NCBI RefSeq assembly: GCF_001418015.1
Contig: NZ_LIQG01000027.1
Coordinates: forward strand, 1-64,000
DNA: 64,000 nucleotides
From: Lacinutrix mariniflava
GTDB lineage: Bacteria > Bacteroidota > Bacteroidia > Flavobacteriales > Flavobacteriaceae
Direction of reading: 5' to 3'
Part shown: piece by piece, positions 30,258-38,853 of the stretch
Position numbering within the stretch: position 1 is the stretch's first letter
How the letters are laid out: each line of letters opens with the position of its first letter
Notes under the pieces: model-generated
The model's input: the letters and a program-made list of their open reading frames with translations, nothing else
Databases searched by the model: none
Told to the model about the DNA's origin: nothing
Position numbers and translations under genes: made by a program

Positions 30258-30339
<82 letters not shown>

Positions 30340-30349
30340 CACAAATTAG

Positions 30350-30505: not shown

Positions 30506-31762
30506 TTAAATACCAAACTCTGCTTTCACCTTATCAATGTAATCTAGTTTTTCCCAAGTAAACAACTCAACATCTAAAGTAATGTCATCTCCATTTGGTC
30601 TAGAAAATGTTTTAGTAACTGTTTCGTTTATTCTTCCCATGTGTCCATAAGCAGCAGTTTCGCTGTATATTGGATTACGTAGTTTTAAACGAGATTCTAT
30701 TGCAGATGGTCTCATGTCAAACACTTTCGAAATTTTATTTGCAATTTCTCCGTCTGTCATATTAAATGGACAAGTACCATAAGTGTCAACAAATATTCCC
30801 ATAGGCTCCACAACACCAATAGCGTAAGAAACTTGAACTAAAATTTCTTCAGCAACACCTGCAGCAACTAAGTTTTTTGCAATGTGTCTTGTTGCGTAAG
30901 CAGCACTTCTGTCTACTTTACTAGGGTCTTTTCCTGAAAAAGCACCTCCACCATGAGCACCTTTTCCACCATAGGTGTCTACAATAATTTTACGTCCAGT
31001 TAATCCTGTGTCACCATGTGGTCCACCAATTACAAACTTTCCTGTTGGGTTAATGTGATATTTAATATCATCATTAAACAACGCTTGGATAGCTTCCGGT
31101 AATTTCGCTACTACTCTTGGTATTAATATCTCAACAATATCTTTTCTAATTTTAGCTAGCATAACATCGTCATTGCTATCAAAATCATCATGTTGTGTAG
31201 AAACAACTATAGCTTCTATACGTTGCGGTGTATTATCATCGCTATATTCTATAGTTACTTGACTTTTAGAATCTGGTCTTATGTAAGTAATGTCTTTATT
31301 CTCACGACGTAATTCTGCTAATTCAATTAATATTTTATGAGATAAATCTAACGCCAAAGGCATATAGTTTTCTGTTTCGCTAGTTGCGTAACCAAACATC
31401 ATTCCTTGATCTCCTGCACCTTGTTCTTCTTTTGTGTCTCTATCAACACCACGATTAATATCGTCACTCTGTTCATGGATAGCACTAAAAACACCACAAG
31501 AATTACCATCAAACATATATTCGCTCTTAGTATAGCCAATTTTGTTTATAGTATCTCTTGCAATTTGTTGTACGTCTAAATACGTGTTAGATTTTACTTC
31601 TCCTGCAAGAACTACTTGTCCTGTAGTAACAAGGGTTTCGCAAGCAACTTTAGATTCACTATCGAATGCTAAAAAATTGTCGATTAATGCATCACTAATT
31701 TGATCTGCAACTTTATCTGGATGTCCTTCAGATACACTTTCTGATGTAAATAAATACGCCAT
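30506..31762 (-). CDS. metK: S-adenosylmethionine synthetase
   Basis: Cytoplasmic enzyme that makes S-adenosylmethionine from methionine and ATP, tetrameric with Mg2+ and K+. The 418-residue sequence shows the ATP/Met site [21 protein letters not shown] at the N-terminus, [12 protein letters not shown], the P-loop-like [18 protein letters not shown] and [15 protein letters not shown]. All three repeats of the fold are present. The gene diverges from the methionine operon and has a long leader (about 110 bases from the start to the aptamer's 5' end) containing a SAM-II-like riboswitch, so its product most likely represses its own synthesis. Confidence 0.97.
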
Positions 31763-31789
31763 AACTTTTTTTTAAATTTTATATATACA

Positions 31790-31864
31790 GGATTTGACGA
31801 AAGCGTCGAAGGAAGTTTACACTGCCTTTAGCATTTTTTAATGAGGTTGCAATCAGTCAAATCC
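31790..31864 (-). promoter_or_regulatory. Expression-platform inverted repeat in the metK leader
   Basis: GGATTTGAC at 31790-31798 is the exact complement-in-reverse of GTCAAATCC at 31856-31864. On the metK RNA the first arm is loop 1 of the SAM-II-like aptamer and the second lies 28 bases before the ATG. The second arm partly overlaps a small GACG-CTTT-CGTC hairpin. Aptamer folding and the long-range pairing are mutually exclusive, as expected of a switch; direction of control is inferred. Confidence 0.6.
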
Positions 31865-31872
31865 GTCCTCGT
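31820..31872 (-). promoter_or_regulatory. SAM-II-like riboswitch aptamer in the metK leader
   Basis: Read on the metK strand, the order of conserved elements matches SAM-II: stem P1 5' arm GAGG (31870-31867), loop with GGATTTGAC and ATTGCA, P1 3' arm CCTC (31846-31843), an A-rich linker, then GCTAAAGG. A pseudoknot closes as ACTG (31857-31854) with CAGT (31824-31821), at the place where SAM-II pairs. This is pattern recognition by eye; a covariance search against the SAM-II model would confirm or refute it. Confidence 0.75.
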
Positions 31873-32137
31873 AATTAATTTCGACAAAAGTATAAAAAAT
31901 TATATGGATAGAAATTCCTTTTTACAATTTTATGAAAACTTTATCTTTAAGGATTAAATCTTTAAGTCAGAAAACGTGATAATTAAAAGACAATATTTTT
32001 TATTAAAATAATTTTAGTTTTATAAAATAGTAATAGACTGTTTTTGGTGAAATATATTTTGTTTAATATTGACTCTAAAGATTTATTTTCTGTTTTAATT
32101 ATTTTAAATTAATTATTCGGAAAAATATTCTTTTTAG

Positions 32138-32170
32138 TTTGGTTAATTAGATTTTTTTTCACAATATTTG
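32138..32170 (+). promoter_or_regulatory. Candidate promoter of the methionine operon
   Basis: TTTG at 32138-32141, a 21-bp spacer, and AATATTTG at 32163-32170 (one mismatch to TAnnTTTG). It lies 31 bases upstream of the SAM-I aptamer. Confidence 0.45.
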
Positions 32171-32200
32171 TGCTCACAAAGTTCAAACACTTACTGAAAT

Positions 32201-32318
32201 GTTATCAAGAAAGGTGGAGAGATAGACTCGCTGAAACCTTAGCAACCCTTAGACTTACTAAGAAGGTGCTAAATTCTACTTAATTTTCGATTCATTAATC
32301 GAACATTGGATAGATAAC
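32201..32318 (+). promoter_or_regulatory. SAM-I (S-box) riboswitch upstream of the methionine operon
   Basis: The aptamer closes with P1 GTTATC (32201-32206) and GATAAC (32313-32318). Inside, the S-box consensus blocks appear in order: AAGAAAGGTGGAGAGA, then CTGAAACCTTAGCAACC and AAGGTGCTAAATTCT. A short AT-rich hairpin (CTAATT/GATTAG, about 32324-32345) followed by TTTCTTTTT may be a weak terminator or part of the switch. SAM binding is expected to reduce expression of the downstream methionine genes. Confidence 0.92.
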
Positions 32319-32437
32319 TAAAATCTAATTACTCATCTGTGATTAGTATTTCTTTTTAACATTTTTCTAATATGTACGCTTCAAATGAAGCTTATTTGAC
32401 TTTTGAATTAATTTATTTAACTCGAAAACTTAGAAAA

Positions 32438-33730
32438 ATGAGTACACAAAAATTTGCAACACAAGCATTACACGCAGGACACGACACAAGTAAAACAGGA
32501 GGAACAAGAGCGGTTCCTATTTATCAAACATCATCTTATGTTTTTGACGATTCAGATGACGCCGCAGGACGATTTAATCTTTCTGTGCCAGGTTTTATTT
32601 ACACCCGATTAAACAACCCAACAAACGATATTTTAGAGCAACGTATCGCAGCACTCGAAGGTGGTATTGCGGCAGTCGCAACAGCATCTGGTACAGCAGC
32701 AATTTCTACAACATTGTTAACGTTGTTAAAAGCAGGCGATCATATTGTAGCATCAAGTAGTTTATACGGTGGAACATACAATTTGTTAAGTGTTACATTG
32801 CCAAGACATGGTATTACGACAACTTTTGTAGATCCTTCAGATCCAGAAAATTTTAGCAAAGCAGCGCAAGAAAATACAAGAGCTATTTTTGTAGAGTCTC
32901 TAGGAAATCCAAAATTAGATGTGTTAGACTTAGAGGCTATTTCTAAAGAAGCCAAAGCAATTAAAGTACCTTTAATTGTAGATAATACAGTGGCAACGCC
33001 TTATTTATTAAACCCAATTGCGCATGGCGCAAACATTGTAATCCATTCTTTAACTAAATATATTAATGGTAATGGAACATCGCTTGGTGGTATCATTATA
33101 GATGGAGGAACATTTGATTGGACTAACGGAAAATTCCCTGAATTTACAGAGCCGTCTGCTGGTTACCATGGTTTAGTGTATAGCGAAGCTATTGGTGCGG
33201 CTGCATTTATTGCTAAAGTTAGAATCGAAGGTTTAAGAGATTACGGTGGCGCATTAAGTCCGTTTAACGCTTTTCAAATCATTCAAGGATTAGAAACATT
33301 AGAATTAAGAATTTTAAAGCACTCTCAAAATGCATTAGCGCTAGCAAAATGGTTGCAAGAGCAACCAGAAGTAACTTGGGTAAATTATCCAGGATTACAG
33401 ACTAGTAAATATAATAGTTTAGCTAAAAAATATTTACCAAAAGGACAAAGTGGTGTGGTTACTTTTGGGGTTGATGGTGGTTTTGAATCGGCTAAAAAAA
33501 TAGCAGACACCACAAAATTATTCTCGCTATTGGCCAATATTGGTGATACAAAATCATTAATCATTCATCCTGCAAGTACTACGCATCAACAATTAAGTGA
33601 TGAAGCACAACAATTAACAGGAGTGACTAAGGATTTAATTAGACTATCCGTAGGAATCGAAAATATAGAAGATTTAAAAGCCGATTTAAAAGAAGCTTTC
33701 GCAGTCGTTAAAAAAACAGTTTTAGCTTAA
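32438..33730 (+). CDS. metY: O-acetylhomoserine sulfhydrylase
   Basis: A 430-residue PLP enzyme of the Cys/Met metabolism family that combines O-acetylhomoserine with sulfide to give homocysteine. It has the longer length and N-terminal KFATQALHAGHDTSKTGGTRAVPIYQTSSYVF block characteristic of the sulfhydrylase branch, YTRLNNPTNDILEQR, and the PLP lysine at residue 207 (HSLTKYINGNGTSLGG). The frame is open upstream to 32372, but those residues (MYASNEAYL...) are leader sequence; ATG 32438 fits the family. First gene behind the SAM-I riboswitch; its substrate is made by the fusion protein two genes downstream. Confidence 0.93.
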   Translation: MSTQKFATQALHAGHDTSKTGGTRAVPIYQTSSYVFDDSDDAAGRFNLSVPGFIYTRLNNPTNDILEQRIAALEGGIAAVATASGTAAISTTLLTLLKAGDHIVASSSLYGGTYNLLSVTLPRHGITTTFVDPSDPENFSKAAQENTRAIFVESLGNPKLDVLDLEAISKEAKAIKVPLIVDNTVATPYLLNPIAHGANIVIHSLTKYINGNGTSLGGIIIDGGTFDWTNGKFPEFTEPSAGYHGLVYSEAIGAAAFIAKVRIEGLRDYGGALSPFNAFQIIQGLETLELRILKHSQNALALAKWLQEQPEVTWVNYPGLQTSKYNSLAKKYLPKGQSGVVTFGVDGGFESAKKIADTTKLFSLLANIGDTKSLIIHPASTTHQQLSDEAQQLTGVTKDLIRLSVGIENIEDLKADLKEAFAVVKKTVLA

Positions 33731-33758: not shown

Positions 33759-34211
33759 ATGAGTGATTTAAAATTTTCAGTAGCAGGAGTAAGTACATCT
33801 GCGACACAATTTGTTGGAAAAGCAAGGCAGTTTAAATTAGTAATAGATGAACCCGAAGCTTTAAATGGTGCAGACGAAGGTGCTAATCCAGTAGAATATA
33901 TTCTTGCAGGATTTGCAGGCTGTGTTAACGTTGTTGGTCATTTAGTAGCTAAAGAACTTGGTTTTAAAATTGATAAATTAAACATAGAAGTATCAGGAGA
34001 TATTAACCCAGGTAAGTTTCTAGGGACATCAAATAATGAGCGCGCAGGTTTTAAAAATATAGAATTAAAACTAGTGCCAGAAACTACTGCCAGCATTGAA
34101 ACATTAGTTAAATGGTTAGAAATTGTTGAAGCACGATGTCCAGTTAGAGATAATTTATCTAATAATACACCAGTAAAAATCTCAGTGCAAAAAGAATACA
34201 ACCTTAATTAA
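33759..34211 (+). CDS. OsmC family protein
   Basis: A 150-residue OsmC/Ohr-fold protein. EYILAGFAGCVNVVGHLVAKELG carries the first conserved cysteine in the typical NPxExLLAxxxxCxxxx context (NPVEYILAGFAGC), and the second redox Cys is in VEARCPVRDNLSNNTP. Family members reduce organic hydroperoxides with these two cysteines, though this thiol-type subgroup is often found in sulfur-metabolism operons. Its stop overlaps the start of the fusion gene by one base (TAATG), implying translational coupling inside the methionine operon. A role in handling reactive sulfur or peroxides is inferred from context. Confidence 0.88.
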   Translation: MSDLKFSVAGVSTSATQFVGKARQFKLVIDEPEALNGADEGANPVEYILAGFAGCVNVVGHLVAKELGFKIDKLNIEVSGDINPGKFLGTSNNERAGFKNIELKLVPETTASIETLVKWLEIVEARCPVRDNLSNNTPVKISVQKEYNLN

Positions 34212-37200
34212 TGACAGATTTACAATACATAGACAGTATCGATTATGTTACTCAAAGTGGTAAGGCAATTAAAATAAAGTTGTCTTATCAGCTTTTTGGT
34301 AAAGCATTACATACAGCTCCAATTGTATTGGTAAATCATGCGCTAACAGGTAATAGTAATGTTGCAGGAGAAGGCGGTTGGTGGTCCGATTTGGTTGGCG
34401 ATAATAAAGTTATCGACACTAAACAATATACCGTTTTAGCATTTAATATCCCAGGAAACGGATATGATGGTTTTTTAATTGAAAATTATAAAGATTTTAT
34501 TGCTAGAGATATAGCAAAACTATTTTTAATAGGATTAGAAAAACTAAACATCAACTCGGTTTACGCTATGGTTGGAGGTTCTCTTGGAGGAGGAATTGCT
34601 TGGGAAATGGCAGTTTTAAAACCCAATTTAGCAACACATTTTATTCCTGTGGCTACAGATTGGAAAGCTACAGATTGGTTAATGGCTAATTGTCAAATAC
34701 AAGAACAGTTTTTGGTTAATTCTAAAAACCCAGTACATGACGCTCGCATGCATGCTATGTTGTGTTATCGTACGCCAGAATCTTTTAAATCAAGGTTTCA
34801 GCGTTCTAAAAACGAAGATTTAGACCTGTTTAATGTAGAAAGTTGGTTGTTGCATCATGGTAATAAATTGCAGGAACGTTTTCAATTATCGGCTTATAAA
34901 TTAATGAATCAATTACTACGTAGCATCGATGTTACTAAGGGAAGAGAATTAAACAATAAGGTGTTAGATGGTATTCAATCTAAAATTACAATTGTTGCAG
35001 TAGATTCTGATTTGTTTTTTACTGCTGAAGAAAACCGAGAGACACAAAAACAGTTAGCATTAACGCATCCCAATGTTACTTATAATGAAATTAATTCCAT
35101 TCACGGGCACGATGCGTTTTTAATAGAGTTCGAGCAACTCGAAAAAATAATAAAAGGCATTTTTAAGCCTGAATTAAAAGAGAATAAAATGAAAATATTA
35201 AAATTCGGAGGAAAATCTTTAGCCAATGGAGAAGGTTTAAACCGCGTTATTTCTATTATAGAAAATAAAGTTAAGGCCGAAGAAAATATCGTTGTTGTGG
35301 TTTCAGCAAGAGGAAAAGCCACAGATCAATTAGAAAACATTCTTGAAAAAGCAGTAATTGATGAATGTTATAAAACAGAATTAGAATTTTTTAAAAACTA
35401 TCAAAAAGAAGTTGCAAACATAGATTTTGAAACAGAATTTTCAAGGCTCGATAGCTTGTTTGCAGGTGTGCAATTGTTAGGGGATTATAGTCAGAAAATT
35501 AAAGATGAAGTGTTAGCGCAAGGCGAATTAATTTCAGCTAAAGTTGTTACGGCATTATTAATAGAAAAAAATATTAATGCAAAAGCAACAGATGCTAGAA
35601 CGTTTATAAAAACAGACGATACCTTTGGTAATGCAAAACCAATAGATGCGTTGTCTAAGAAAAATGTAGTCGCTTATTTTAAACAAAATAATGGCACTAC
35701 AGTTAATGTAGTCACTGGTTTTATAGCGTCTAATAGAGATAACAAAACAACAACTTTAGGTCGTAATGGTAGTAATTACACTGCTGCATTATTGGCTAAT
35801 TATCTTGATGCCGCAGAGTTACAAAATTATACGCATGTGAATGGTATTTATACCGCTAATCCCGATTTGGTATCAGATGCTAGAAAAATTGAAAGACTGT
35901 CTTTTACAGAAGCTAATGAATTGGCTAATTTTGGAACGACCATTTTACACGCAAAAACTATTATTCCTTTAATAGAAAAAAATATTCCATTACGTATTTT
36001 AAACACATTCAATCCGGAAGATAAAGGCACAATAATAACGGCTCAAAATAAAGATAAAGGTATCCGTTCGTTATCTGTTTTAGATAATGTGGCTTTAGTA
36101 AATATCGAAGGACGTGGTTTATTGGGTAAAGTCGGTGTAGATGCTAGGATTTTTACTGCTTTAAGTAAAGAGAATATAAGCGTTAGTATTATTTCTCAAG
36201 GCTCGTCAGAGCGTGGTATTGGTTTGGTCATTGAAGCCGAACATGCAAATAGAGCCGTTATTGTTTTAGAACAAGAGTTCGAGAATGATTTCTATTCGCA
36301 AGACATTAATAAAATTAGTGTTATAGACGATGTGTCTGTCATTTCAATTATCGGTCAAGAGTTAAGCACGTTTCACAAACCGTTTAATGCCTTAATTAAA
36401 AACCAGATTATTCCTATCCTTTTCAATAACACAATTACTGGCGAAAATGTGAGTATTGTAGTTAGAAAAAAGGAACTTCATAAAGCCTTGAATGTTATTC
36501 ATGGAGAGATCTTCGGAATCTCAAAAAAGATAAATCTAGCCATTTTTGGACATGGTTTAGTTGGTGGTGCTTTAGTGAATCAAATTATTGCTTCAGCTAA
36601 AGATATCGAAAAACGTAAAGGTATTAAGCTTAATATTTTTGCGATTGCCAATTCCAAAAAGGCAATATTCAATAAAAATGGCATCGATAAAAACTGGAAA
36701 AACACATTAGAAACTAACGGTGGAAATTATAAGATTGAAGATGTCTTTCAATTTGCAAAAGACAATCATTTAGAAAACTTAATAGCTATAGATAATACGT
36801 CAAGCTTAGAGTTTGTATCTAATTATATTAAGTTGGTAGAGCAAGGTTTCGATTTAGTATCGTCTAATAAAATAGCAAATACTATAGATTTAGAATTCTA
36901 TAACCAATTACGTAATACTTTAGAGAAGCATCAAAAAAGCTATTTATACGAAACTAATGTTGGTGCAGGTTTACCGCTAATAGATACTATTAAATTATTG
37001 CACCTTTCGGGTGAAAATATTGTGCGTATTCGTGGTGTGTTTTCTGGATCGTTAAGTTATTTGTTTAATACGTTTTCTTCGGAAGACACCTCGTTTGCAA
37101 CCGTATTACAGCAAGCTCTAGATAAAGGGTTTACAGAACCAAATCCAAGAGAAGATTTAAGCGGAAACGATGTCGCAAGAAAACTATTAATCTTAGCGAG

Positions 37201-37606
37201 AGAATTAGATTTACATAATGAAATTAGCGATGTAACTATCGAAAACCTAATTCCAGAGCCGCTTAGAGAAATTGAAACGTCTCAGTTTTTAGATAGTTTA
37301 GATGAAATGAATACTGTTTTTCAAAAGATAAAAGAAGCACAAAAAGAAGGTCACGTATTAAGATACATTGGCGATTTACACGGTGATTTATCGCAAGAAA
37401 ACGGAGCGAAATTAGATGTTAAACTGGAGTCTGTGCCTAGTCAATCGCCTTTAGGAGCGTTGCAAGGAGCCGATTCTATTTTCGAAATATACACAGAAAG
37501 CTATGGCGAAAAACCCATTGTTATTCAAGGCGCAGGAGCTGGAGCATCAGTAACAGCAAGAGGTGTTTTTGGAGATATTTTAAGACTAACAGAAAAGAAT
37601 AATTAA
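34211..37606 (+). CDS. Fused homoserine O-acetyltransferase / aspartokinase / homoserine dehydrogenase
   Basis: A 1131-residue three-part enzyme. Residues 1-~325 are a MetX-like alpha/beta hydrolase fold: nucleophile Ser124 (VGGSLGGGIAWE), Asp267 (VDSDLFF) and His300 (IHGHDAFL). Residues 327-~765 are a ThrA-type aspartokinase starting MKILKFGGKSLANG, with GRNGSNYTAAL and two ACT-like regions. Residues ~775-1131 are homoserine dehydrogenase (IFGHGLVGGALVNQ; LVSSNKIANT; VGAGLPLIDTIK; GVFSGSLSYLFNTF). There is no stop or obvious start signal between parts. It would catalyse three steps, aspartate to aspartyl-phosphate, aspartate semialdehyde to homoserine, and homoserine to O-acetylhomoserine. 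The kinase part has unusual substitutions (see finding). Confidence 0.92.
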   Translation: MTDLQYIDSIDYVTQSGKAIKIKLSYQLFGKALHTAPIVLVNHALTGNSNVAGEGGWWSDLVGDNKVIDTKQYTVLAFNIPGNGYDGFLIENYKDFIARDIAKLFLIGLEKLNINSVYAMVGGSLGGGIAWEMAVLKPNLATHFIPVATDWKATDWLMANCQIQEQFLVNSKNPVHDARMHAMLCYRTPESFKSRFQRSKNEDLDLFNVESWLLHHGNKLQERFQLSAYKLMNQLLRSIDVTKGRELNNKVLDGIQSKITIVAVDSDLFFTAEENRETQKQLALTHPNVTYNEINSIHGHDAFLIEFEQLEKIIKGIFKPELKENKMKILKFGGKSLANGEGLNRVISIIENKVKAEENIVVVVSARGKATDQLENILEKAVIDECYKTELEFFKNYQKEVANIDFETEFSRLDSLFAGVQLLGDYSQKIKDEVLAQGELISAKVVTALLIEKNINAKATDARTFIKTDDTFGNAKPIDALSKKNVVAYFKQNNGTTVNVVTGFIASNRDNKTTTLGRNGSNYTAALLANYLDAAELQNYTHVNGIYTANPDLVSDARKIERLSFTEANELANFGTTILHAKTIIPLIEKNIPLRILNTFNPEDKGTIITAQNKDKGIRSLSVLDNVALVNIEGRGLLGKVGVDARIFTALSKENISVSIISQGSSERGIGLVIEAEHANRAVIVLEQEFENDFYSQDINKISVIDDVSVISIIGQELSTFHKPFNALIKNQIIPILFNNTITGENVSIVVRKKELHKALNVIHGEIFGISKKINLAIFGHGLVGGALVNQIIASAKDIEKRKGIKLNIFAIANSKKAIFNKNGIDKNWKNTLETNGGNYKIEDVFQFAKDNHLENLIAIDNTSSLEFVSNYIKLVEQGFDLVSSNKIANTIDLEFYNQLRNTLEKHQKSYLYETNVGAGLPLIDTIKLLHLSGENIVRIRGVFSGSLSYLFNTFSSEDTSFATVLQQALDKGFTEPNPREDLSGNDVARKLLILARELDLHNEISDVTIENLIPEPLREIETSQFLDSLDEMNTVFQKIKEAQKEGHVLRYIGDLHGDLSQENGAKLDVKLESVPSQSPLGALQGADSIFEIYTESYGEKPIVIQGAGAGASVTARGVFGDILRLTEKNN

Positions 37607-37683: not shown

Positions 37684-38853
37684 ATGGATTCTAATAATTT
37701 TGAAACCCAGGCCATAAGAACACAAACAGAGCGTTCTCAGTATTTAGAGCATTCTACACCTTTATACTTAACATCTAGTTATGTATTTGAAGATGCCGAA
37801 GATATGCGAGCCTCTTTTGCAGACGAGAAAGATCGTAATATTTACAGTCGCTATTCAAATCCAAACACATCAGAGTTTATAGATAAAATCTGTAAAATGG
37901 AAGGCGCAGAAAGTGGTTATTCTTTTGCTTCGGGTATGTCTGCTATATTTTCAACATTTGCAGCTTTATTAGATGCAGGAGATCATATTATTTCATGTAA
38001 CAGTGTTTTTGGTTCTACACAAACCATGTTTAAAAATATTTTACCAAAGTGGAATATTTCTACCAGTTATTTTAAAATAAATGAACTTGATAAAATTGAA
38101 AGCTTAATTCAACCAAGTACTAAGGTTATTTATGCAGAAAGCCCAACAAATCCAGCAGTAGATATTTTGGATTTAGAAGCTTTAGGTCGCATTGCTAAAA
38201 AGCATAATCTTATTTTAATTATCGATAATTGTTTTGCAACACCTTATTTACAACAACCTATACAATTTGGAGCAGATTTGGTAATCCATTCGGCAACAAA
38301 GTTAATAGATGGTCAAGGTCGTGTACTAGGTGGTATTACAGTTGGTAGAGCTGATTTAGTTAAGAAAGTCTATTTGTTTTCAAGAAATACAGGTCCAGCA
38401 TTGTCACCTTTTAATGCATGGGTATTGTCTAAAAGTTTAGAGACTTTAGCGGTTAGATTAGATAGACATTGTGAGAACGCATTAAAAATAGCAACATTTT
38501 TAGAAAGTCACGATAAAGTAAATGTTGTAAAATATCCTTTTTTAAAATCGCATCCACAGTACGAATTGGCTAAAAAGCAAATGAAAGCTGGTGGTAATAT
38601 TGTTGCTTTTGAAGTTAAAGGTGGTATTGAGGCAGGACGACAGTTTTTAAATAATATTAAGCTATTATCGTTATCTGCAAACCTTGGTGATACTAGAAGT
38701 ATTGTCACGCATCCAGCATCAACAACACATGCAAAGCTAACCGAAGAAGAAAGATTATTAACGGGTATTATTGGCGGTTTAGTGCGTGTTTCGGTAGGAT
38801 TAGAGCATCCAGAAGATATTATTAAAGATTTAAATCAAGCATTAGCATTATAA
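37684..38853 (+). CDS. Trans-sulfuration PLP enzyme (O-succinylhomoserine sulfhydrylase-like)
   Basis: A 389-residue PLP enzyme of the Cys/Met metabolism family, the second in this cluster. The PLP lysine is residue 206 (HSATKLIDGQGRVLGG), and YSRYSNPNTSEF and the late SLSANLGDTRSIVTHPASTTH block are canonical. Its N-terminus (NFETQAIRTQTERSQYLEHSTPLYLTSSYVFEDAEDMRASF) and length are nearest to MetZ and cystathionine gamma-synthase types rather than MetY. Which sulfur donor it uses cannot be told by reading. It could provide a second route to homocysteine or make cystathionine. It begins 78 bases after the fusion gene, behind a repeat element. Confidence 0.88.
   Translation: MDSNNFETQAIRTQTERSQYLEHSTPLYLTSSYVFEDAEDMRASFADEKDRNIYSRYSNPNTSEFIDKICKMEGAESGYSFASGMSAIFSTFAALLDAGDHIISCNSVFGSTQTMFKNILPKWNISTSYFKINELDKIESLIQPSTKVIYAESPTNPAVDILDLEALGRIAKKHNLILIIDNCFATPYLQQPIQFGADLVIHSATKLIDGQGRVLGGITVGRADLVKKVYLFSRNTGPALSPFNAWVLSKSLETLAVRLDRHCENALKIATFLESHDKVNVVKYPFLKSHPQYELAKKQMKAGGNIVAFEVKGGIEAGRQFLNNIKLLSLSANLGDTRSIVTHPASTTHAKLTEEERLLTGIIGGLVRVSVGLEHPEDIIKDLNQALAL

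Follow-up and report, generated by a model that had tools for sequence, protein, structure and literature searches.

Back-to-back SAM riboswitches of two classes between metK and the metY operon of Lacinutrix mariniflava, with predicted start-site and antisense expression platforms

Classical S-box (SAM-I) riboswitches act through intrinsic terminators or by masking of the Shine-Dalgarno (SD) sequence. The locus of Lacinutrix mariniflava presented here resembles them in that a full SAM-I aptamer (RF00162) stands before methionine biosynthesis genes. Unlike in the classical S-box, the start site that the expression platform appears to conceal is A-rich and has no SD element, and the strand that would conceal it also pairs with the 5' edge of the aptamer.

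Weinberg et al. (2010; PMC2864571) list Bacteroidetes and marine sequences for the long-loop variant of SAM-II (RF01726), and the second aptamer of this locus agrees with that entry in both aptamer and taxon. In alpha- and beta-Proteobacteria, SAM-II is described as often being followed by terminators (PMC2258182, PMC9373788). In contrast, the spacer that precedes metK here appears to be antisense to the aptamer, and such spacers show no excess of terminators.

Two classes of SAM sensor close together are also found in the SAM-II/SAM-V and SAM-II/SAM-I-IV tandems covered by a 2022 review, which counts seven tandems with SAM-II before SAM-I/IV and two in the reverse order (PMC9481103). The tandems described there have both aptamers on one transcript, whereas here each stands on its own divergent transcript, before its own gene. 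No report of a head-to-head pair of SAM riboswitches was found in the open-licence literature searched.

Two aptamers in one divergent intergenic region

The window analysed is a 64-kb stretch of L. mariniflava DNA. It was scanned whole with cmscan against Rfam (4227 families, gathering thresholds), which gave both aptamer matches. RF00162 matched at 32199-32320 on the plus strand with 75.4 bits (cut-off 44.4, E 7e-16) over the full model, positions 1-108. A preliminary description of the region had placed a complete SAM-I aptamer in the met operon leader at the slightly narrower limits of 32201-32318, in agreement with this match. RF01726 matched at 31876-31818 on the minus strand with 61.9 bits (cut-off 44, E 1.7e-9), again over the full model (positions 1-60). 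The ACUG/CAGU pseudoknot is visible by sequence. At the Rfam thresholds, the earlier assignment of the metK leader to the pseudoknotted SAM-II class stands.

That description had named RF00162 and RF00521 as the models to run, and this was right for the first and wrong for the second. RF00521 (SAM_alpha) gave only 20.7 bits in the metK leader (31880-31809, minus strand), under its gathering cut-off of 36. It had also held that the SAM-II reading would fall if the leader scored below threshold for all SAM-II-type models, and RF01726 passes. The correct model name for the metK aptamer is thus RF01726, not RF00521. A genome-wide search returned a single match of each class. The aptamers lie on opposite strands, 322 bp apart (323 by the S-box profile), and precede different genes; they are therefore not a tandem riboswitch, which would have both on the same strand before one gene. 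The genes, aptamers and promoter elements are as follows.

30506..31762, minus strand: metK, methionine adenosyltransferase (TIGR01034 and three Pfam SAM synthetase domains)
31818..31876, minus strand: SAM-II (long-loop) aptamer of metK (RF01726)
31885..31892, minus strand: Bacteroidota -7 promoter element TACTTTTG (TAnnTTTG), just 5' of the SAM-II aptamer (consensus as given in PMC6847099 and PMC7366714)
32163..32170, plus strand: probable metY -7 element AATATTTG, one mismatch to TAnnTTTG, about 37 nt before the aptamer
32199..32320, plus strand: SAM-I (S-box) aptamer of the metY operon (RF00162)
32438..33730, plus strand: metY, O-acetylhomoserine sulfhydrylase (TIGR01326)
33759..34211, plus strand: OsmC-like protein gene (PF02566)
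34211..37606, plus strand: MetX-like domain fused to aspartate kinase and homoserine dehydrogenase
37684..38853, plus strand: second Cys/Met-metabolism PLP enzyme, probably homoserine sulfhydrylase (PF01053; best NCBIfam model just below cut-off)

The identities of metK (TIGR01034, 504.9 bits, cut-off 309.4) and metY (TIGR01326, 640.3 bits, cut-off 495.1) are clear, and the SAM-I aptamer stands 5' of a sulfur/methionine gene. Among the matches listed, the first titled relative of metK is from Gaetbulibacter (89% identity). The relatives point to 32438 as the most likely start of metY, rather than the ATG that comes first in the frame, at 32372. With this start, the limits of 31763-32437 given earlier for the intergenic region hold. 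The fusion gene is a 1131-aa frame in which a MetX-like alpha/beta hydrolase part (TIGR01392, below cut-off) is joined to a bifunctional aspartate kinase/homoserine dehydrogenase part (NF006959, above cut-off), so that three pathway steps reside in one protein. Just downstream of metK, on the opposite strand, lies a tRNA-Tyr gene (anticodon GTA, 30258-30340, plus strand).

Of 194 SAM-II leaders, 187 carry the motif TAnnTTTG in the 60 nt ahead of the aptamer, where shuffled sequences would give about 11; nearly always it sits 11-20 nt before the aptamer. These 194 are the leaders used throughout; two of the 196 with a metK match had no start codon set and were dropped. For SAM-I, 55 of 107 leaders have a -7-like motif in the last 60 nt ahead of the aptamer, most commonly at position -37 (18 matches).

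Membership of these families suggests that both RNAs would bind SAM. Together with the gene identities, the class matches support the earlier proposal that a single metabolite could control its synthase and its precursor pathway through unrelated RNA folds. It could be argued that one of the two RNAs has lost SAM sensing, through decay or repurposing of its aptamer, since the SAM-II of the window has a G more than the model consensus ahead of its pseudoknot strand (GGCAG). However, the same G recurs among the relatives listed, both RNAs match full-length models well above cut-off, and the window retains ACTG/CAGT, the commonest SAM-II pseudoknot pair (142 of 182 parsed leaders, from the 194). 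The outermost pair of the pseudoknot is standard in 146 of these 182, as read with a parsing pattern that itself demanded TG and CAG. We regard loss of sensing as very improbable.

Distribution of the two classes and of their layouts

A 2007 survey is reported to have met no species with both SAM-I and SAM-II (PMC2258182). In a Flavobacteriaceae sample of 299 genomes searched at E<=0.001, SAM-II was found in 283 and SAM-I in 234. Comparison of the two tables by hand left six genomes with SAM-I but without SAM-II, and hence 228 of 299 with both. The presence of both classes in one genome is ordinary in this family. Across a phylum sample of 148 genomes, SAM-II was found in 21 and SAM-I in 127.

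The two classes stand mostly before different genes. Among the 193 SAM-II loci first parsed, 191 are followed directly by metK in the same orientation, at a median distance of 62 nt. For SAM-I we used 107 distinct examples, chosen for a top score or for lying near metK and hence not a random draw. By best tblastn match, metY follows 44 of them, the MetX fusion 12 and the second PLP enzyme 10; a further 27 stand before a MetH-like frame known by its DGAMGT motif. No gene could be assigned to the remaining 14, and metK is not among the genes that follow the other 93.

SAM-II has also been placed elsewhere. Two small genomes without a SAM-I match (G004 and G239) carry a SAM-II copy upstream of metY. 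G004 has two SAM-II copies, neither of them before metK, and the second precedes genes for a DUF6580 protein and a homocysteine S-methyltransferase. In G052 a SAM-II copy is followed by queF, one more frame and a Cys/Met PLP gene, and in each of G081, G290 and G298 a copy lies before queF or a close likeness of it.

Individual records among the loci collected show this picture in more detail. In L028 and L338, which have no SAM-I match, SAM-II lies upstream of metY in the place that SAM-I holds in many relatives, and one SAM aptamer class replaces another at the same gene. L333 (583-2134), whose genome likewise gave no SAM-I match, has SAM-II ahead of the genes for a DUF6580 membrane protein and a homocysteine S-methyltransferase; this context hints that DUF6580 may serve the transport of methionine or a precursor. 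A second SAM-II stands ahead of queF in L006 (1639-2073), L334 (696-1106), L335 (627-1052) and L336 (676-1101), all from small-genome relatives without a SAM-I match. QueF was recognized by Pfam in the first two and by sequence likeness in the others, and in all four it is followed by a frame resembling the DUF6580 protein of L333. SAM-II-like profile matches also lie upstream of metK in Bacteroidales-type records (L262, L264, L281, L287-L289, L292-L294, L296, L297, L299-L304, L307, L309 and L314); of these, L288 reaches 62.4 bits in Rfam and the others were seen by profile only. In Flavobacterium hibisci (L242, 4381-4459), a Flavo-1 RNA (RF01705) lies directly downstream of metK.

The layout was examined in 198 SAM-II loci, one per genome and with the window included, out of the 283 SAM-II-positive genomes. 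A divergent SAM-I within 1 kb was found by the S-box profile in 29 of them, with gaps of 126-688 bp. In five loci SAM-I was divergent at 1.5-1.8 kb, in 35 it lay downstream of metK on the same strand, and in 129 none was found in the fetched stretch; as 57 of the 198 loci span no more than 1.5 kb on each side, collinear or distant SAM-I copies may be missed. Among 80 titled metK loci, four head-to-head pairs within about 240 bp were found, three in Polaribacter (L241, L253 and L268, confirmed by Rfam) and one in a Bacteroidia MAG (L248, by profile match). The two congeners examined lack this layout. They have an Rrf2-like frame (named by eye) upstream of metK, and their SAM-I lies about 148 kb off in one and on a different contig in the other.

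One may ask whether the layout itself is functional, with divergent promoters or leaders coupled, for instance by supercoiling or a shared regulator, and kept by selection. Its recurrence, seen in 29 of 198 loci and again in the three Polaribacter records and the MAG, would fit this idea, as would the 16 gaps of only 126-151 bp, which leave roughly room for two promoters. However, it is missing from two congeners, a collinear order is found instead in 35 of 198 loci, and on the metK tree the layout label needs 21 changes for 29 tips (a single-gene FastTree in which 80 of 191 inner branches are weak). A coupled layout is therefore improbable in our view, and the plain reading is that of neighbouring genes, each with its own switch. 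The arrangement would follow from metK adjoining the met operon, and any function of its own is hypothetical. The observation of two SAM riboswitch classes head to head is thus confirmed, as a recurrent but labile variant, and the arrangement singled out in the preliminary description tells less than the sequences downstream of the aptamers.

A predicted start-site switch in the metY leader

The elements of the metY leader to which the following tests refer are these, all on the plus strand.

32196..32211, plus strand: 5' flank and P1 5' strand GAAATGTTATCAAGAA, putative anti-sequestor partner (MFE folds, duplex tests)
32325..32346, plus strand: post-aptamer hairpin CTAATTAC/GTGATTAG (MFE folds)
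32350..32367, plus strand: anti-sequestor TTCTTTTTAACATTTTTC, predicted to pair with 32196-32211 in the ligand-free fold (folds, duplex test)
32360..32370, plus strand: sequestor CATTTTTCTAA, predicted to pair with the metY start site under aptamer masking (folds, duplex test, scrambling)
32430..32440, plus strand: metY start site TTAGAAAAATG (ATG 32438-32440), predicted sequestor target (relatives' starts, folds)

Bacteroidota mRNAs are described as being without SD sites, and ribosome profiling in Flavobacterium johnsoniae is reported to show that upstream adenines and low structure favour SD-less initiation (PMC6847099). Masking of the start site is thus a plausible off-state in such an mRNA. 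No study of a SAM switch in an SD-less Bacteroidota setting was found in the open-licence literature searched.

We compared 53 metY leaders. Class A, which includes that of the window, comprises the 31 whose start site reads GAAAAATG; the other 22 form class B. In metY leaders a strand reading TTCTTnnTAAC or similar lies 3' of the SAM-I aptamer and is complementary to the 5' flank and the 5' strand of P1. Without any anchor, over the first 110 nt, this anti-sequestor pairing was better than in shuffles (p<0.05, ignoring kinship) in 21 of 31 class A and 15 of 22 class B leaders, and over the whole region it was so in 25 of 27 metH leaders, again ignoring kinship. Anchored counts were higher (30 of 31 and 18 of 22) but optimistic, since the anchor had been chosen by that same pairing, and we rely on the anchor-free ones. 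A duplex test with a first choice of anchor, which proved wrong in several leaders, was rejected; it had given p<0.05 for the anti-sequestor in 81% and for the sequestor in 62% of the 53. In the metH set, L050 and L037 were run with a shortened start site, and L096 has an OsmC-like frame (by eye) before metH.

In class A the strand extends into CATTTTTCTA, which can pair with TAGAAAAATG across the start codon. The sequestor paired with the start site better than shuffles (p<0.05, ignoring kinship) in 31 of 31 class A leaders at the anchored strand and in 14 of 31 anchor-free. Outside class A this pairing was weak (class B 4 of 22 anchored and 3 of 22 anchor-free; metH 5 of 27). Class A sequestors favour class A start sites (mean -9.85 versus -2.94 kcal/mol), and class B sequestors show no preference for class B over class A start sites (-3.85 versus -3.96). 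A class comparison of the flank only (AA -2.75, AB -2.00, BA -2.09, BB -2.21) gave differences too small to use. By eye, the downstream strand and the start site deviate together from the class pattern in L040 and L142 (both metH) and in L248 (metY).

Predicted folds respond to the aptamer in the same sense. When it was masked, the start region became less accessible both in class A (0.51 to 0.23; lower in all 31 leaders) and in class B (0.52 to 0.40; lower in 20 of 22). Scrambling of the sequestor in the 31 class A leaders shrank the change induced by masking from -0.33 to -0.06. The class A helix has nine pairs, none of them changed on both sides among the 24 of 31 sequences aligned; being nearly invariant, it offers no covariation support. 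A covarying three-way junction in the metY element was also considered and dropped, as consensus folding gave the sequestor helix only, with no compensatory pair. Start-codon masking thus appears well supported by sequence and model in the leader class of the window, and in that class only.

A different view would have this SAM-I act by intrinsic termination as in Firmicutes, the hairpin at 32325-32346 followed by TATTTCTTTTT stopping transcription when SAM is bound. An eight-pair, AT-rich hairpin and a T-rich, interrupted run do follow the aptamer of the window, and terminator-like hairpins come after 15 of 97 SAM-I aptamers against 1.8 expected. But the other 82 show no such structure in the same test. 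The terminator scan did not list the hairpin of the window. The T-rich run TTCTTnnTAAC is accounted for by complementarity to the aptamer 5' strand, and scrambling of the sequestor abolishes most of the predicted start-site effect. Termination is thus unlikely to be how this leader works, and start-site masking is the reading that we keep.

At low SAM, the 5' flank and P1 5' strand GAAAUGUUAUCAAGAA would pair with the downstream UUCUUUUUAACAUUUUUC, leaving the metY start site free. With SAM bound, P1 would close and release CAUUUUUCUAA, which could then pair with UUAGAAAAAUG containing the start codon. This pairing would block metY translation without any SD element.

A predicted antisense platform in the metK leader

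On the metK side, the following elements on the minus strand are of concern.

31763..31817, minus strand: SAM-II-to-metK spacer, 55 nt, putative expression platform
31790..31798, minus strand: antisense strand GUCAAAUCC in the spacer, complementary to the aptamer (MFE fold and spacer statistics)
31809..31828, minus strand: inner hairpin AAGGcAGU/ACUuCCUU of the predicted ligand-free fold, absorbing the aptamer 3' pseudoknot strand (MFE fold)
31856..31864, minus strand: SAM-II aptamer segment GGAUUUGAC, predicted ligand-free partner of the downstream antisense strand (MFE fold)

In the ligand-free MFE fold of the window, GGAUUUGAC pairs with GUCAAAUCC and the pseudoknot strand is drawn into the inner hairpin. 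The overall stability of the window metK leader is unremarkable (z -1.18). Short motifs complementary to the aptamer are strongly enriched in the spacers: GTCAAAT occurs in 84 of 194 (1.4 expected), GCAATC in 27 (2.25) and CTCTAGC in 18 (0.4), and 36 of the 194 have none of these three simple motifs. Over the 194 leaders, the spacer-aptamer duplex has a mean z of -2.39, with p<=0.05 in 63%, kinship being ignored. The signal lies in the aptamer 5' half (mean z -2.19); the two regions used as controls gave values near zero (-0.11 and 0.01), and those on the start side lay between -0.38 and -0.21. Spacers also pair better with their own aptamer variant (mean z -0.96, at least as well as with 79% of other cores), and for the 31 cores seen only once the figure is 73% (Wilcoxon p 1.6e-4), both comparisons ignoring kinship. 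It is reasonable to think that the metK spacer is an antisense copy of the SAM-II aptamer that tracks its variants.

Several routes by which such a spacer could reach metK were considered. An intrinsic terminator as a general rule was rejected (4 of 194 leaders, 4.85 expected), as was general masking of the start site by the spacer (mean z -0.38 near the start and -0.08 for the aptamer-adjacent strand) and pairing of the upstream 5' flank with the metK start (mean z -0.13). Masking of SAM-II barely moves the accessibility of the start site (0.57 to 0.55 in 194 leaders, Wilcoxon p 5e-5). Among the 48 leaders whose spacers measure 35-49 nt, 12 showed a start-site stem at p<0.05, as did 18 of all 194 (9.7 expected). 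The metK start site of the window does not pair with the beginning of its spacer (p 0.8).

The SAM-bound state may instead act through Rho, its freed C-rich and G-poor spacer being a Rho loading site. In the proximal half of the spacer, C averages 26% and G 13%, masking of the aptamer raises the unpairedness of the spacer from 0.34 to 0.56, and SAM-II leaders show neither a terminator excess nor general start-site pairing. On the other hand, complementarity to the G-rich strand of the aptamer would also give an excess of C, all spacers but one are only 37-110 nt long, and some short-spacer leaders show a start-site stem instead. We regard the Rho route as tentative and less likely than not.

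For the antisense platform itself, we propose that at low SAM the spacer strand would pair with the 5' half of the aptamer and keep the leader permissive. Binding of SAM would lock the pseudoknot and free the spacer, and metK expression would fall. This last step could be termination by Rho, decay of the transcript or, in some of the relatives with short spacers, masking of the start site.

We infer ligand binding, the direction of control and all effects on expression; the aptamers and the conserved alternative pairings come from sequence and predicted folds. On this basis, the locus probably holds two genuine and independent SAM off-switches back to back, a SAM-I acting on the start site and a SAM-II acting through an antisense spacer, and we put the probability of this reading at roughly 0.7. 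A broader proposal, to which we give barely better than even odds, combines three ideas. In start-site mimicry, the aptamer 5' edge and the gene start would compete for one strand, which the closed SAM-I aptamer yields to the start codon. The SAM-II platform would be antisense to its own aptamer. Finally, the two classes would divide the labour, with SAM-II controlling metK and SAM-I methionine synthesis, a division kept across most of the family and sometimes squeezed into one divergent intergenic region. As predicted here, the SAM-I start-site mimic and the self-antisense SAM-II platform look new, both being undescribed in the open-licence literature searched.

The locus would provide a pair of natural switches for one ligand in one cell, whose sensitivity and speed could be compared. 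Likewise, the two platforms may serve as testable models of how riboswitches reach translation in Bacteroidota, where mRNAs are without SD sites.
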